DNA of 64,000 nt from Brumimicrobium glaciale (GTDB lineage: Bacteria > Bacteroidota > Bacteroidia > Flavobacteriales_D > Crocinitomicaceae). The notes under the pieces are model-generated. The model made no database searches. It was not told the origin of the DNA and saw only the letters and a list, made by a program, of their open reading frames with translations. The position numbers and the translations under genes were made by a program. The stretch lies in the NCBI RefSeq assembly GCF_004152935.1, contig NZ_SETE01000002.1, positions 124,001 to 188,000 on the forward strand. Direction: 5' to 3'. This document shows positions 21,073 through 52,868 of the stretch, one piece after another (the stretch's first letter is position 1; each line of letters begins with the position of its first letter).

Positions 21073-22099
21073 TAACTCTGCCTGACTCCTAAATCAGATC
21101 TATTTTCATCTTTTATCCAACAAACTGAGTATTCTTTAAATGCTTTGGGTTTAACCTCACATCGACAAGCTCAGTACAGATGTGGTTAATAATTAATTGT
21201 AAATTAGATTCCTCTTTTACGAACATCCCTATTTACTGTGCACTCGAATATATTTCTTGAAAAGACTAAGTTTCTATGCGGGCAGAAAGCCCAGCTCAAA
21301 TCAGCAGGATACAGCGCGTCCTGCTGAATAAGTAATATAATCCAGCACCCTGAAAAAGCAAATTATTTTTTTTTAGTCAAAACCATCTAAAATTAATAAA
21401 GTAATGATTTTGCTAATCTTTGACGACTAGATCTTAAAAACAGAACACTAATTATCTTACACGAGGATTTAGCGCACCAAAATATAATTGGTTCTATATG
21501 ATTTTGTGTGGGTAAATTTAAAATCTATGGTTTTAATTGAAGCCAAACGATTCTTAATTTGGTTCTACTTTTATTTAAATGGAAATTTTCTTTTACAATA
21601 CAATTGGCTTAATTTGATAAATCCCTGTTATTTAAGTATTTATTATTCAAAATCCCAGAGGGACGACATGTTAATAGGGATGGGCTAAAGCCCTTCCGTC
21701 AAACGAAACAATCCGAAACAAAACCCCACAAAATCGACCTAATTGCATGCAATTAGGTCGATTTTGTGGGGTTTTGTATTATATCTATTTGTTTTAAACC
21801 AAGGACTTACGTCCTTGGCTATTAATATGCCGTCCCGATGGGACTAACCAACTGGAATAGAGACTATCATATGCTTGCTTGTGAAAATGAAATGATAATT
21901 TTGATAAATACTTTAAAATACAACTCGTGTAGGTTACAGTTGAATTCGTAGTAGAACTATTAATCTTTCGAAGGATTAAAATTGATTACGCACAGTATTT
22001 CATAAAGAGCCATAAAATTATCCCGGATACTGCGTGTTTATTAAAAGGAATACCATTTAAAAGATGAGTTAAAAATCAGATTCTAAGCTAAACCAAGCG
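21073..22099. other. 1-kb intergenic region holding dispersed repeat copy 1
   Basis: The first 400 bases contain a hairpin around a degenerate GACAAGCTCAGTAC palindrome (21151-21187) and a 9-bp stem TCAGCAGGA/TCCTGCTGA (21301-21327). The remainder, 21490-22012, is the structured dispersed repeat. A 66-codon open frame inside it (21488-21688) is conserved in copy 2 only because that segment aligns without gaps, and it resembles no known protein. Confidence 0.6.
21490..22012 (+). repeat. Structured dispersed repeat, copy 1 (full)
   Basis: Aligns with 36730-37241 along its whole length and, in its 5' tip and right half, with 52608-52868 (opposite strand). It contains a closing stem (21660-21677 with 21819-21836, 16 of 18 pairs), a hairpin (21678-21697), a perfect 60-bp palindrome (21718-21777, centred on TTGCATGCAA) and a hairpin CCAAGGAC-TTAC-GTCCTTGG (21799-21818). 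The hairpins abut the closing stem with no gap. The outer ends are GGTTCTAT and AGAGCCA. Confidence 0.85.
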
Positions 22100-22816
22100 C
22101 TACTTAAACAAATCTGGATGTAAGAATTTATAATGCTCCAGCTTATCCTGAATATAAACTATTAAATCATAGTCTGAGGCTGTTTTAAGAAAATGCTCGT
22201 CAATATTTAAGAAGTTTATAAAAGCAGTAAACTGTTCTTCTTCCAAATAAACAACATCATAAGAAACATAAGTACGCAAAAGTTCTTTTACAACATTCGT
22301 CATGTTGTCTTTGTGCTCCATTTCAGCAACGAGTCGCTTGGACTGCGCTTTGTCACTAAACCTTTCGTATAATGCTGTAATCGGACTCTTAAAAATATCT
22401 ATTCCTGTTACTGTTCTTGTTTCTCTCTGACTCAATGCTTCACGTTCTTCCTTAATTTTCTCTAAAGATTTAATCGGATATACCTGAATTTCTTTAAAGT
22501 TCTGAATATTTGGACTTAAATAAATGATTGTGTCAATCGAACATTTGTTTTGAGCAGGAATATCAATAAATTTCTTCCCATAACCTTTTACAGAGAATGC
22601 AATCTTATCTCCAGGTCGTACATAAACAGAAAATTCGCCATTTGGTCTACCAAATACACCTTGTTGTGTGGTTACATTAATAACCATCAAGTTGTAAAAA
22701 CTTTGCACCATTGCAGTATCACGGACAGATCCTTTTAAATAGATTTCTTCACATTGACCTTGAACCATTGTCCAACTCGCTAATGCTAAACCGAAAGTGA
22801 GTACTGTTTTTTTCAT
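22100..22816 (-). CDS. Exported protein with carboxypeptidase-regulatory-like domain
   Basis: A 238-residue secreted or periplasmic protein. The signal peptide is MKKTVLTFGLALASWTMVQGQ. The next 85 residues (IYLKGSVRDTAMVQSFYNLMVIN...GEFSVYVRPGDKIAFSVKGY) look like the carboxypeptidase-regulatory-like beta-sandwich that precedes many Bacteroidota receptors, but no plug or barrel follows. The C-terminal half is helical and charged (KIKEEREALSQRETRTVTG, LYERFSDKAQSKRLVAEM). I do not recognise a function; proteins of this shape are usually annotated as hypothetical. It is transcribed divergently from mnmA, and an operator-like dyad (22856-22869) sits about 40 bases upstream of its start, where it could overlap its promoter. 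Confidence 0.65.
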   Translation of the reverse strand: MKKTVLTFGLALASWTMVQGQCEEIYLKGSVRDTAMVQSFYNLMVINVTTQQGVFGRPNGEFSVYVRPGDKIAFSVKGYGKKFIDIPAQNKCSIDTIIYLSPNIQNFKEIQVYPIKSLEKIKEEREALSQRETRTVTGIDIFKSPITALYERFSDKAQSKRLVAEMEHKDNMTNVVKELLRTYVSYDVVYLEEEQFTAFINFLNIDEHFLKTASDYDLIVYIQDKLEHYKFLHPDLFK

Positions 22817-22855
22817 GCTGGTAAATATATTGAAAAAATGTTGTTCTTTGCTGAT

Positions 22856-22998
22856 GTTACATTTGTAACCTTGTTAAAAGAATACAAAATCCAAATGTTT
22901 ACTTTTGTAATTAACTATAAAGTCTGAGAAAATTCAACTATATACATTTGTAACTTAAACTCAAATTCACATGGATAAACGATGTTTACAATTGTAAC
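22856..22998. promoter_or_regulatory. Cluster of four XRE-operator-like dyads upstream of mnmA
   Basis: Four 14-base dyads with the form KTTACnnTTGTAAY: GTTACATTTGTAAC (22856-22869), TTTACTTTTGTAAT (22898-22911), TATACATTTGTAAC (22941-22954) and TTTACAATTGTAAC (22985-22998). Spacing is 42-44 bases, about four helical turns. The first three each contain a TAnnTTTG promoter box. Related dyads flank the XRE gene at 24.7 kb, so that protein is the likely binder (inference). Confidence 0.65.
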
Positions 22999-23009
22999 AT
23001 TTATTCATT

Positions 23010-23039
23010 TTGTTTAGCCATAAAACTTACGTAAATTTG
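23010..23039 (+). promoter_or_regulatory. Promoter of mnmA
   Basis: TTG at 23010-23012, 19 bases, TAAATTTG at 23032-23039; exact consensus, with the mnmA ATG 18 bases downstream. The nearest dyad (22985-22998) ends 11 bases upstream of the -33 element. Confidence 0.65.
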
Positions 23040-23057
23040 CACTCTTAAATTTATAGA

Positions 23058-24239
23058 ATGAAACGTGTAGTAGTAGGATTATCTGGAGGTGTAGATTCAA
23101 GTGTAGCGGCCTATCTGTTGAAGGAACAGGGTTATGATGTTATTGGTTTATTCATGAAGAACTGGCATGATGAGTCTGTTACGCTTTCTGATGAATGTCC
23201 GTGGATTGATGATGCAAATGATGCTTTACTTGTAGCCAATAAACTCGGAATCCCTTTTCAGGTGATTGATTTGAGTAAGGAATACAAGGAACGTATTGTT
23301 GAGTATATGTTTGATGAATATGCGTCCGGACGTACTCCTAACCCAGATGTTTTGTGTAACCGTGAAATCAAGTTCGATGTTTTTATGGAACGCGCGCTTG
23401 AATTGGGTGTTGATTACGTAGCTACTGGACATTATTGCAGACGCAAAGACAATCCGGATGGTAGTGTTAGTTTGTTGGCTGGACTGGACCGCAATAAGGA
23501 TCAGTCTTATTTTCTATGTCAGTTAAACCAAGATCAGTTGAGTAAAGCACTTTTCCCTGTTGGTGATTTGCAAAAAGATGAAGTAAGAAGGATAGCGAAA
23601 GAACAAGATTTAATTACTGCTGATAAAAAGGACTCTCAAGGTCTTTGTTTTATTGGTAAAGTCAGTCTTCCAGAGTTTTTACAGCAGCAACTTAAAGTAA
23701 TGAAAGGTAAAGTTATTGAAGTACCTGAAAGTTTGCCTGTTCTAACCAAATTCCATGAAATTCCTCGTGATTTTGATCATATTGAAGAGCTAGTTGCTCC
23801 TATTCATTTTAAGGAGGAAGACGGAATTGTAGTTGCAGAGCATCAAGGAGCTCACTTTTACACGATTGGACAGAGAAAAGGTTTGGCAATTGGCGGTAGA
23901 CCAAATCCGTCGTTTGTACTTGAAGTTAATACTACAAATAACCTGATTTTCAGTGGACAAAATGATACTCATCTTGGTTTGAATAAACCTGCTTTAAAAA
24001 TTGATAATGAGTCTATTATTTATGCTAATCTAAATAATGAGTTTAATATCAATAAGGTCACAGATGTAATGGTTAGAATTCGTTATCGTCAGTCATTACA
24101 AAAAGCGAAAGTTTTACGTAAAAATGACTTTACTTATGTTTTGTTTGATGAATTACAGCGCGGCATAACGCCAGGACAGTTTTGTGCTTTTTATGACAAT
24201 AACGACGAATTATTGGGTTCTGGAGTAATTAGTGTTTAG
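23058..24239 (+). CDS. mnmA: tRNA 2-thiouridine(34) synthase MnmA
   Basis: A 393-residue enzyme that adds sulfur to uridine 34 of Lys, Glu and Gln tRNAs, using ATP and persulfide sulfur. The PP-loop is SGGVDSS at 9-15. The two catalytic cysteines are C100 ([12 protein letters not shown]) and C197 ([10 protein letters not shown]), at almost the same positions as in the E. coli enzyme. The C-terminal domain has the typical [10 protein letters not shown] and [20 protein letters not shown]. The last 11 bases overlap the tail of the convergent XRE gene. An essential-type tRNA gene beside an XRE repressor and an array of operator dyads is unusual. Confidence 0.95.
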
Positions 24240-24675
24240 GAACTGTCTCTTCAAATGTACCATCATCATAAAAAACTAGGATTTTTGTAATCTTGCGTTG
24301 ACTATCTAGGTCGGGTTCTCTATTTTCGACAGGCTTCTCGCGCGACACACCCTTATATTCGCCAGGTTCTTCTTCATGAATGGTTTGAATTGGGGCATTC
24401 ACTTCAGTGGTAACGTTTCGTTCTTCTTTAACTTCTATTTCTTCCGTCGATCCACTTATTTTACCTATTCTCTTCCCTGTTACCAGCCAATCTGCGTTTA
24501 CTTTAGGAAAAGTTACCAAGATCTTTTGAATAAAATCTATACTGGGTTTATTACGTCCAGCCAATACATGTGAAATACTAGAACGCTGAACTCCAATTTC
24601 ATCTGCAAAAGATGCGTTGGTCATTCCGTTCATTTTTATTACCATTTGTAATCTTTCGCTTATCGACATATACAT
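24229..24675 (-). CDS. XRE family helix-turn-helix regulator
   Basis: A 148-residue DNA-binding protein. The N-terminal HTH_3 domain spans about 6-62: [50 protein letters not shown], with [11 protein letters not shown] as the recognition helix region. The rest is charged linker ([15 protein letters not shown]) and a short C-terminal end ([17 protein letters not shown]); no LexA-type peptidase domain is present. Two start codons are possible, ATG at 24675 and ATG at 24669; the second begins directly at MSISERLQ. Its 3' end overlaps mnmA by 11 bases. Operator-like dyads lie just upstream (24682-24791) and upstream of mnmA, so autoregulation is likely. The family resembles phage-type cI/Cro repressors, but no phage genes are nearby. 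Confidence 0.85.
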
Positions 24676-24681
24676 TTGTTT

Positions 24682-24791
24682 ATTGTAAAAGTAACATTTT
24701 TTAATCTAAGAGTTACATAAGTGAATATATTATTTTTGAATAGGTTTACTTTTGTAACCTTGGATAAATTCCAGATAGTTACTTTTGTAAA
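24682..24791. promoter_or_regulatory. XRE-operator-like dyad cluster upstream of the XRE gene
   Basis: Two strong dyads, TTTACTTTTGTAAC (24745-24758) and GTTACTTTTGTAAA (24778-24791), and two weaker ones, ATTGTAAAAGTAAC (24682-24695) and GTTACATAAGTGAA (24712-24725), stand 30-33 bases apart. The nearest one covers a TACTTTTA -7-like box a few bases before the XRE start codon on the minus strand, which is the position of a classical repressor operator. Confidence 0.6.
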
Positions 24792-24932
24792 CAGTATTTA
24801 CATCATTATCCAAGTCGATAAAGATGTATTCGCTAGTATTCCCTGTGTATTGACGATGAAAAAAATTAAAAACCAATAGAGTTGATTACAATTGGTTATT
24901 CCCTGTTGTTAATGGTAGACTTCAGAATAATA

Positions 24933-24962
24933 TTCTAAACGACTAACCAGTTAATATCTTTG
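24933..24962 (+). promoter_or_regulatory. Promoter in front of the RNA candidate
   Basis: TTC at 24933, 19 bases, TATCTTTG at 24955-24962. The -7 box is exact and the -33 element has one change from TTG. Predicted transcription start is about 24968-24970. Confidence 0.5.
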
Positions 24963-24967
24963 TGGAA

Positions 24968-25112
24968 TGACAGTCAATTTGGGAGTCTCTCGGGTACAGT
25001 GTTGCTCAATCTCTGCTAGAACAACACTTTCCCCGACCTATAGATCTTAAAACTTATCATTTCAGAATGCAACTACTGAGAAGCTCTCCTACCTCTGGCG
25101 GAATCCCTTCTT
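24968..25112 (+). ncRNA. Structured ncRNA candidate, possibly 6S RNA
   Basis: There is no open frame here, but a promoter lies directly upstream. The text can fold into one long rod: GGGA (24981) with UCCC (25103-25106), an imperfect stem with G-U pairs, GGGUA with UACCU, then CAGU-GUUGC with GCAAC-U-ACUG, leaving a small 3' side hairpin GAGA-AGC-UCUC in an internal loop. An alternative local stem AGUGUUG/CAACACU plus UCGGG/CCCGA competes. Rod shape, length near 140-150 nt, an asymmetric bubble and the segment CUUAAAACU recall 6S RNA, the sigma-factor-sequestering RNA. I cannot confirm this without a covariance-model search. It could instead be another structured RNA or a leader. Confidence 0.4.
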
Positions 25113-25550
25113 TTATTTCATAAAACGTGATTTTACGTTTTATGTTAAGTACATTCTAATGTTAATTTCTAGGTTTTTTTAACTGAGTAATTTCAAAATT
25201 CCATTAAAGTCAGGGTAGAACTTTGTTATTAAACTAAGGAATTGATTCACTCCTTCACTCCTATTAAAAATAGCGTTGTGAAAATATAACTAAACTATTT
25301 AGGGAACCTAAAAATTCTCTTTGGACTTCTTTTACTCAGATAATTAATGTGATCGTGATATATATTCTGATTTTGATACTAATTTATGGATTGAGTACCT
25401 AATACTGGGAAGGTAAATTAAGTAAGTTATGTTGTTTATGCTGGTTTTGTTGGTTCTTCAGCTACTAAAGTTTAGCTACCGTGTCTACTGTGCCTATTGT
25501 GTCAACGCTTAGTTACGCTGGCTGAGCGGAGTCGAAACCAGACAGTTCAA

Positions 25551-25579
25551 CAAAAAAAGAGGAGCCATAACTCCTCTTT
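25551..25579 (-). terminator. Intrinsic terminator after the 64-residue protein gene
   Basis: AAAGAGGAG-CCATAA-CTCCTCTTT gives a perfect 9-bp stem. On the minus strand it is followed by a run of seven T. It lies about 55 bases after the stop of the gene at 25633. Confidence 0.8.
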
Positions 25580-25632
25580 GATTAAATAAAACAACGTTAA
25601 ACTATAAACTATTGAACAAAAGCATATTGCAA

Positions 25633-31525: not shown

Positions 31526-31555
31526 TTGCAGACTGAAATGTAATTACTACTTTTG
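31526..31555 (+). promoter_or_regulatory. Promoter of the SRP RNA gene
   Basis: TTG at 31526-31528, 19 bases, then TACTTTTG at 31548-31555; exact consensus. Initiation is expected close to 31560, where the RNA's closing stem begins. Confidence 0.7.
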
Positions 31556-31559
31556 CGGC

Positions 31560-31657
31560 GGGGTAAGTCATGTACGACTAGCTCCTTCTGAACCCCCCAG
31601 GACGGGAACGTAGCAAGGGTAAGAAGTTGTAGCAGTGCGATGCATTAAGCTTACCCC
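31560..31657 (+). ncRNA. ffs: Signal recognition particle RNA (4.5S type)
   Basis: The RNA of the signal recognition particle, which with Ffh targets membrane proteins. The terminal stem is GGGGTAAG (31560-31567) with CTTACCCC (31650-31657). The conserved tip, CCCCCCAGGACGGGAACG followed by TAGCAAGGG, contains the GGAA-type tetraloop and the asymmetric internal loop bound by Ffh. Its length of about 98 nt is normal for the small bacterial form. A run of eight T begins at 31661 and serves as terminator. Own promoter at 31526-31555. No protein is read from this strand; a 60-codon antisense frame is a shadow. Confidence 0.92.
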
Positions 31658-31886
31658 ACTTTTTTTTCCTCTCCACCACCATTTCCAAAATCTTCTCGCT
31701 TCAAAAATACAACAAGTCACTGTCAATGATTGGTAATCTAACCGCGTCATTTAATACAGCCTTTACATTACACAATCTTTATTATATATTCTTAATCTTT
31801 GAATTTGCGTCAAAATCAATTTTAAAATTAATTTAACTGATTTTGAAACACGAAATTAAAGAAGTTGCAAAACTATTTTAAAAACT

Positions 31887-31979: not shown

Positions 31980-32085
31980 TTTTATTCCACACCATTAACT
32001 TCTAACAATTTAATATACAAGTGTTTAAAAGTGTTAAATTTCATGATTTAATTCAAGATACCTAGGTTATGCAAACATAATAAAG

Positions 32086-36729: not shown

Positions 36730-37241
36730 GGTTCTATGTGATTTTGTGTGGGTAGATTTAAAATCTATGCTTTTAATTGAAGCTAAACGATTGTTAATTT
36801 GGTTCTACTTTTATTTAAATAGACACTTTCTATTAAAATACATTTCGCTTAACTTCATAAATTACTGTTATTTAAGTGTTTATTGTTCGAAGTCACAGAG
36901 GGACGGCATGTTAATAGGGATGGACGTAAGTCCATCCGCCAAACGATACAAACCCAACAAAATCGACCTAATTGCATGCAATTAGGTCGATTTTGTTGGG
37001 TTTTGTATTATATCTATTTGTTTTAAACCAAGGACTTACGTCCTTGGCTATTAATATGCCGCCCCTCCGGGACTAATCTATTGAAATACAGACATCTATG
37101 TCCTTGTTTGTAAATATTAAATGTTAATTTTGATAAATACTTTGAAATACAACTCGTGTAGGTTACAGTTAAATTCGTACTAGAACTATTAATTTTTCAA
37201 AGGATTAAAATTGATTACCCACAGTATTTCATATAGAGCCA
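36730..37241 (+). repeat. Structured dispersed repeat, copy 2 (full)
   Basis: Aligns with 21490-22012. Closing stem 36900-36917 with 37048-37065 (16 of 18), hairpin GGATGGAC-GTAA-GTCCATCC (36918-36937), long palindrome centred near 36976 (inner 27-base arms), and hairpin CCAAGGAC-TTAC-GTCCTTGG (37028-37047). Relative to copy 1 the palindrome has CCCAAC/GTTGGG in place of CCCCAC/GTGGGG and the small hairpin GAC/GTC in place of GGC/GCC, so changes are paired. Confidence 0.85.
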
Positions 37242-52607: not shown

Positions 52608-52868
52608 GCTTTATATGAAATGCTATGAGTAATCAATTTTAATCCTTCGAAAAATTAAAAGTTCTACTACGAATTTAACTGTAACCTAAACGAGTTGTGT
52701 TTTAAAGCATTTATCAAAATCATCATTTATTTTTTACAATCAAGTATATGGCACCCTGTTTTTCAGTTGGTTAGTCCCGGCGGGACGGCATATTAGTAAC
52801 CAAGGACGTAAGTCCTTGGTTTAAAACAAATAGATATAATACAAAACCCCACAAAATCATATAGAACC
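52608..52868 (-). repeat. Structured dispersed repeat, copy 3 (internally deleted)
   Basis: On the minus strand it keeps GGTTCTATATGATTTTGTG, then jumps directly to the GGGTTTTGTATTATATC text that follows the long palindrome in copies 1 and 2, and continues to the right end. The missing 260 bases lie exactly between two GATTTTGTG direct repeats (in copy 1 at 21500-21508 and 21760-21768). The CCAAGGAC hairpin and the right strand of the closing stem are retained. Confidence 0.85.

Follow-up and report, generated by a model that had tools for sequence, protein, structure and literature searches.

Phased palindromic dyads beside mnmA and an XRE-type gene of Brumimicrobium glaciale as candidate operators of the XRE protein

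The repressor and Cro proteins of phage 434 use several operators and regulate their own synthesis. Autoregulation is also known for the type II antitoxin-like XRE regulators HigA and HipB. Among the Bacteroidota, the non-canonical, S24-type LexA proteins have a phage-repressor-like helix-turn-helix (HTH) and, for some genes, several sites per promoter; one member, the SOS regulator of Elizabethkingia anophelis, binds TTAC-AAATT-GTAA, a TTAC-N5-GTAA site (PMC8565304).

The DNA analysed here is a 64-kb stretch of Brumimicrobium glaciale, referred to as the window in its full length. Brumimicrobium is a genus of the Crocinitomicaceae in the Flavobacteriales. Two arrays of short palindromic dyads, A and B, stand near mnmA and a gene for an XRE-type regulator. 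Based on comparison between genomes, both arrays are very probably operators of the neighbouring XRE protein, which would regulate its own gene and the p238/mnmA gene pair. That the dyads and the protein form an operator/regulator pair of a known general kind, acting as a fairly ordinary local gene switch, is a well-supported reading of the sequences.

The XRE protein resembles the phage 434 proteins in its predicted HTH fold, in a 14-bp palindromic candidate site with a weakly specified centre and in the presence of several candidate operators with probable autoregulation. In contrast to 434 repressor, it has only a short beta hairpin in place of a repressor-type C-terminal domain, the half-site sequence differs, and no phage genes were recognised among the XRE neighbours examined. 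Compared to the non-canonical LexA proteins described in PMC8565304, the XRE protein has no S24 domain, the spacer between TTAC and GTAA is 4 bp and not 5, and there is no sign of an SOS regulon. The HTH and the palindromic candidate operators are shared with HigA and HipB, but the XRE protein scores below the curated cut-offs of both families (18.3 against 47.7 for HigA and 13.8 against 79 for HipB). Its gene neighbours are mnmA, p77 or pyrD; none is a recognised toxin gene, and p77 matches no Pfam or NCBIfam family.

Arrangement of the dyads and the XRE protein

The genes and dyads of the locus are as follows.

22100..22816, minus strand: p238, transcribed divergently from mnmA and a possible array A target; its 238-aa product begins, judged by eye, like a signal peptide
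22856..22869, unstranded: candidate operator dyad A1, the closest to p238, with a perfect GTTACATTTGTAAC; matrix score 17.2
22898..22911, unstranded: candidate operator dyad A2, matrix score 16.2
22941..22954, unstranded: candidate operator dyad A3, matrix score 13.9
22985..22998, unstranded: candidate operator dyad A4, nearest to mnmA, matrix score 18.4
23058..24239, plus strand: mnmA (tRNA 2-thiouridylase; Pfam tRNA_Me_trans, 278 bits), convergent with the XRE gene
24229..24675, minus strand: XRE gene, 148 aa (Pfam HTH_3, AlphaFold2 model, Foldseek)
24712..24725, unstranded: candidate operator dyad B1, the lowest score of the XRE-side array, 11.6
24745..24758, unstranded: candidate operator dyad B2, matrix score 17.9
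24778..24791, unstranded: candidate operator dyad B3, matrix score 17.1

Reading rightward, the order is p238, mnmA and the XRE gene, beyond which no convincing gene follows for about 950 bp. The divergent genes p238 and mnmA are separated by 241 bp, in which array A lies; array B lies before the XRE gene. The similarity of p238 to known families is weak, with 27.4 bits for BamP (cut-off 230) and 17.8 bits for CarbopepD_reg_2 (cut-off 32.2). The other neighbour of the XRE gene in the window, p77, is a conserved small ORF of 77 aa without a Pfam or NCBIfam match. The roughly 840 bp from array B to p77 (24792-25632) contain no convincing gene or Rfam match, and the best Rfam hit for an RNA element beside the XRE gene had an E value of 0.14, below the cut-off of that family. 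The gap between XRE and p77 is shorter in loci L037-L039 and not in L036. Elsewhere in the window, Rfam recognises a Bacteroidales_small_SRP RNA at 31554-31660 (plus strand, 102 bits) and three Acido-Lenti-1 RNA matches above the gathering score, at 21799-21845, at 37028-37074 (plus strand) and at 52773-52819 (minus strand).

To avoid circularity, the 16-column matrix used for scoring was derived from 84 training sites, all of them in front of XRE orthologues from other families than that of the window. The motif is the 14-bp palindrome (G/T)TTACA-NN-TGTAA(C/A). The four centre letters were left free in the training sites, yet A predominates at the first and T at the last of these positions (82% of the 84 sites, both strands counted). 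At a score of at least 11, the 64 kb contain eight matches, compared to a mean of 2.8 in five first-order Markov shuffles. The plain consensus GTTACANNTGTAAC has one perfect and one single-mismatch dyad in the window, both in array A, where 0.03 and 0.1 would be expected.

Seven of the eight matches coincide with dyads listed in a preliminary description of the locus, which had counted eight around mnmA and the XRE gene. The remaining one of its eight, at 24682, scores below 8 and consists of a GTTAC half-site next to a TACTTTTA box on the XRE strand; a further relative that it placed at 32084 also scores below 8. The regular spacing it described was confirmed, with steps of 42, 43 and 44 bp in array A and of 33 and 33 bp among 24712, 24745 and 24778. 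Its statement that no comparable dyad lies inside genes is not quite right, as the eighth match, at 22670 inside p238, scores 11.6, equal to the dyad at 24712.

The XRE protein belongs to the XRE/Cro-CI HTH group by both domain and fold, with a Pfam HTH_3 score of 35.7 bits (cut-off 23) and five helices in the AlphaFold2 model (residues 5-15, 20-27, 31-38, 46-55 and 61-66). The model consists of a 434-Cro-like HTH, a linker of low confidence and a confident C-terminal beta hairpin. Foldseek places chains of 434 repressor and Cro at the top of its matches, with E values of about 0.002 and none at 0.001 or below, and a sequence search of the PDB returned one weak match, to a designed protein. 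A C-terminal S24 peptidase domain is absent: the only families found are HTH_3 and HTH_19, and the model has just the beta hairpin after the linker. The score against the RstR phage repressor family (NF041951) is 37.7 bits, under the curated cut-off of 80. Among 52 aligned sequences D138 is invariant, and Y136 and F141 are nearly so. A dimer of this HTH would read the 14-bp palindrome (G/T)TTACA-NN-TGTAA(C/A); on helically phased sites such dimers would occupy neighbouring positions, with cooperativity probable and the conserved C-terminal beta hairpin as its possible means.

Association of the dyads with the XRE gene

The XRE protein has one match in its own genome and is present in 32 of 59 genomes, its own included. 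It is also found in the best 80 of 111 loci of a species-wide collection, which extend from the Flavobacteriales to the Bacteroidales. Conserved palindromes stand before the regulator's own gene, as in autoregulated operator/repressor pairs: all 20 XRE-bearing genomes of the family, none of which was used for training, have a site scoring at least 12 within 350 bp upstream of XRE, compared to 16 of 1000 shuffled upstream regions (1.6%), and 13 of the 20 have two or more sites at 11. Among 102 XRE upstream regions overall, most of which supplied training sites, 84 have a site at 12 and 59 have two or more; this set excludes L007-L010, duplicates of L036-L039, as well as L098, L103, L105 and L106, in which the XRE ORF falls outside the cluster. 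The core TTACN4GTAA occurs 108 times in 32.6 kb upstream of XRE and 93 times in the other 813 kb of these 110 loci. This count is conservative, with minus-strand loci among L007-L035 left unturned and four loci being duplicates.

The dyads accompany the XRE gene into differing gene neighbourhoods, and their presence varies with the recognition helix. The strict core is mostly present with the helices QRSSISH, NRATISH and ARASVSH, is mixed with QPSGISH-like helices, and is absent in 12 of 12 loci with SEGALSS- or SPGSLSS-like helices. The comparison supports the operator character of the dyads. It also bears out the earlier suggestion of the XRE protein as binder: since the same palindromes accompany related genes in many members of the phylum, they are very probably docking sites of this protein.

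Binding by another regulator, for example a non-canonical S24-type LexA of the Bacteroidota, with XRE merely a target, was considered with regard to the similar E. anophelis SOS site. That site has a 5-bp spacer (PMC8565304), compared to 4 here, and its binder is S24-type, in contrast to the XRE protein with its HTH families only. The clustered dyads lie at XRE loci and not at SOS genes (10 of the 15 other cores in the own genome were examined), they follow XRE to different neighbourhoods, and they are missing where the recognition helix differs. It is quite unlikely that another regulator is the binder and XRE only a target; the cassette may have a second regulator besides XRE. It should be mentioned that many Bacteroidaceae-like XRE loci (L091-L115) have a different dyad, GTTTA-N6-TAAAC, just downstream of a -7 box. 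With up to one mismatch, it precedes 10 of 16 Bacteroidaceae-like XRE genes and 21 of 64 of the rest, and because of these proportions its reading as a possible operator of a diverged recognition helix is suggestive only.

The spacings between dyads follow the DNA helix, in agreement with the phased multi-site arrays of the preliminary description. Among 100 adjacent spacings upstream of XRE (sites at score 11, at least 12 bp apart), 17 fall at 23-25 bp, 20 at 32-35 bp, 3 at 42-45 bp, 5 at 52-56 bp, 2 at 65-66 bp and 20 at 189-192 bp; the rest are scattered, e.g. at 28 and 47-48 bp. The spacings of 189-192 bp come chiefly from Flavobacteriales loci with a 99-aa XRE. The resultant length of the 100 spacings is 0.59 at a period of 10.5 bp, compared to 0.32 at 10 bp and 0.40 at 11 bp, and for the 43 distinct spacings it is 0.37 at 10.5 bp; no p-value is attached to the phasing because many of the loci are related. 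Dimers on adjacent sites would face roughly the same side of the DNA. A corresponding figure for the region between mnmA and p238 was set aside, the resultant of its 31 spacings (omitting the long gaps of 185 bp in the window and 95 bp in G011) being 0.80 at 10.5 bp and 0.78 at 11 bp.

Over the whole genome the motif is not enriched. The core TTACWWWWGTAA has 20 matches in the 4.27 Mb of the own genome, five of them at this locus, compared to 40 for the reversed pattern as a composition control; the longer motif with one mismatch allowed has 16 forward and 32 reversed matches. The dyads stand out by being clustered locally and by the conservation of this clustering. The counts, below those of the reversed pattern, would be in keeping with an origin of the dyads by chance in A+T-rich DNA. 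The clustering, conservation and phasing argue against such an origin, and the XRE and mnmA upstream tests are strongly contrary to it unless the samples are atypical; chance is an extremely improbable explanation.

Among the cores outside the locus (10 of 15 examined), six lie inside ORFs, one of them with a score of 18.4 (L126), a further departure from the claim that comparable dyads avoid genes. The other four stand 23-70 bp before a gene and coincide with a TAnnTTTG box facing it. Such single dyads look accidental, and a genome-wide regulon was rejected as an interpretation. Tandem cores 8-36 bp apart have nine matches in six of 10 genus genomes, eight of which fall within the XRE/mnmA locus of G000 (the own genome), G003, G006, G007 and G008; the ninth, in G004, is about 5 kb from XRE and has mixed centres. 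A strict tandem pair is absent at this locus in five of the 10 genomes. The reversed pattern gives five tandem matches in the same genomes (in G000, two against two). On these counts, what speaks for the tandem cores is their place in the genome rather than how many there are.

Promoter boxes and the targets of array A

Flavobacterial sigma-A promoters have a TTG or TTTG element near -33. A TAnnTTTG box at -7 is part of their consensus (PMC9723704). Two features of this kind lie outside the dyads.

22822..22829, minus strand: -7-like box TATATTTA before p238, with no TTG at 15-23 bp in the window
23009..23039, plus strand: predicted mnmA sigma-A promoter, TTTG-N19-TAAATTTG, with its box at 23032

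It had been noted that most dyads contain a promoter box, and binding was proposed to cover this -7 element. The first part holds by letters, the boxes TACATTTG and TACTTTTG of the TAnnTTTG type being literally present in the dyads. No -33 element accompanies such a box facing mnmA, p238 or XRE: the exact boxes inside the mnmA-side dyads (22858, 22900 and 22943) have no TTG at 15-23 bp, and those inside the XRE-side dyads are oriented away from XRE, a single one (24780) having CTTG at 17. The sole box with TTTG at a spacing of 19 is the one at 23032. The same TTTG-N19-TAnnTTTG arrangement is found 49-51 bp before mnmA in five of five genus sequences, including L037 with its distant array, each time outside the dyads. 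Since the dyad boxes have no TTG and the complete promoter lies outside the dyads, promoter occlusion fails as a mechanism, at least for mnmA.

The same boxes raise the question of whether the dyads are tandem sigma-A -7 boxes that are palindromic by chance, the arrays being multiple promoters. Single dyads elsewhere do behave like -7 boxes. The best one outside the locus, a perfect dyad (L128, G000:C1:465145), stands 43 bp before the tRNA-modification gene queA (Pfam Queuosine_synth). Across 17 relatives a dyad-like score is kept there in three (G002, G003 and G004) and a TAnnTTTG box in most (by eye), so that the comparison suggests a -7 box and the queA dyad was rejected as a conserved operator. 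In the arrays, however, the dyads remain symmetric despite a variable centre, which in 17 of the 84 training sites is TTACAATTGTAA, without TTTG. This variation, together with the missing TTG elements and the orientation of the XRE-side boxes away from XRE, makes multiple promoters an unlikely explanation of the arrays.

If the arrays are operators of the XRE protein, the position of array B before the XRE gene would imply negative autoregulation, and that of array A between the divergent p238 and mnmA promoters would imply control of p238, mnmA or both. Array A lies upstream of the -33 and -7 boxes of mnmA and not on them, so an effect on mnmA may be activation or upstream interference and not plain blocking. 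In five of five genus sequences the p238 ATG is preceded by the TATATTTA box, whose start is 12-16 bp away, and the nearest dyad core ends 27 bp before this box in four of them and 22 bp in L039. Such a layout would fit an activator-dependent promoter.

Comparison of orthologous XRE-mnmA pairs, recommended in the preliminary description, links the sites before mnmA to an adjacent XRE gene. Two or more sites at 10.5 stand upstream of mnmA in 13 of 19 XRE-adjacent genomes and in none of 13 family genomes without XRE, compared to 0.13% of shuffled regions. The Fisher p value of 1.2e-4 overstates the independence of the cases because the adjacency label is clustered on the mnmA tree; it needs six changes there, two forced by well-supported branches, which means more than one event and far fewer than 32 independent cases. 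The test excludes six genomes from other families, G024 (no upstream sequence) and G030 (a weak, non-adjacent XRE match), and no mnmA match was obtained in G029 and G035. One site each precedes mnmA in the XRE-absent G032 and in G030, outside the test. Five of the 19 XRE-adjacent genomes have no site at 10.5 within 500 bp before mnmA: G004 has its array at p238, G017 has only 207 bp of sequence, and G015, G023 and G026 have no sites.

The geometry of the sites relative to mnmA and p238 differs between species. In B. mesophilum (G004, L037) p238 and mnmA lie about 400 bp further apart, and the array has kept its place next to p238, its nearest site being 503 bp from mnmA. The distance from the start of the nearest dyad to the p238 ATG is 49-54 bp in six genus genomes (G000-G005). 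Together with the conserved predicted promoter of mnmA itself, these observations favour array A serving p238 only, with mnmA a bystander. Against this, sites are nearer to mnmA than to p238 in G007, G009 and G018 and about midway in G025. An exclusive role for p238 is a serious possibility at somewhat less than an even chance; it is compatible with XRE operators, and the two estimates overlap. With array A read as an XRE operator region, control of p238 is likely and control of mnmA is possible, as judged from site positions. Adjacency of mnmA to XRE occurs in the family of the window and in two MAG loci for which no family is given (L065 and L082), and mnmA was not found in the XRE loci of ten genomes outside the family. 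The arrays would belong to the regulator, and mnmA is probably no special case in the window.

XRE loci with pyrD and TerC-type neighbours

In the best 80 of 111 loci, a dihydroorotate dehydrogenase gene (pyrD) follows XRE on the same strand within 300 bp in 32, and pyrK and then pyrD follow in 13 more, i.e. pyrD in 45 of 80. Many of these loci are close relatives, and the pyrD and pyrK clusters were Pfam-checked on four representatives. In L060 and L064 a site overlaps the start of pyrD, beginning 8 bp ahead of it; in L080 the site begins 24 bp ahead. These loci lead to the prediction that pyrimidine synthesis is controlled by XRE through pyrD in many Bacteroidota. In the own genome of the window pyrD is located elsewhere (C7), with no site scoring at least 9 in the surrounding 2.4 kb.

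Genes for TerC-family membrane proteins adjoin XRE in L045, L054, L055, L048, L052 and L057; XRE precedes them in one set of these loci and follows them in the other (L045 and L048 were Pfam-checked). On the contig of L046, labelled as a Lachnospiraceae MAG, XRE and its neighbours are almost identical to those of the Epilithonimonas locus L045, and it is probably a mis-binned contig.

Tentatively, and with appreciable doubt, these loci may represent a phylum-wide, apparently undescribed family of small XRE autoregulators, built from an HTH and a C-terminal beta hairpin with the pattern Y-x-D-x-x-F. Their phased arrays would travel with the gene and capture an adjacent gene, cooperative filling acting as the switch. 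In many Bacteroidota the captured genes might be pyrD or pyrK-pyrD; some Flavobacteriales would have TerC-type transporter genes in this place and the Crocinitomicaceae p238/mnmA. No description of the XRE family was found in the titles and abstract openings of the open-access literature, and an account elsewhere is possible. The comparison assigns a DNA motif, with exact sites, to an uncharacterised regulator family of the Flavobacteriales and Bacteroidales.
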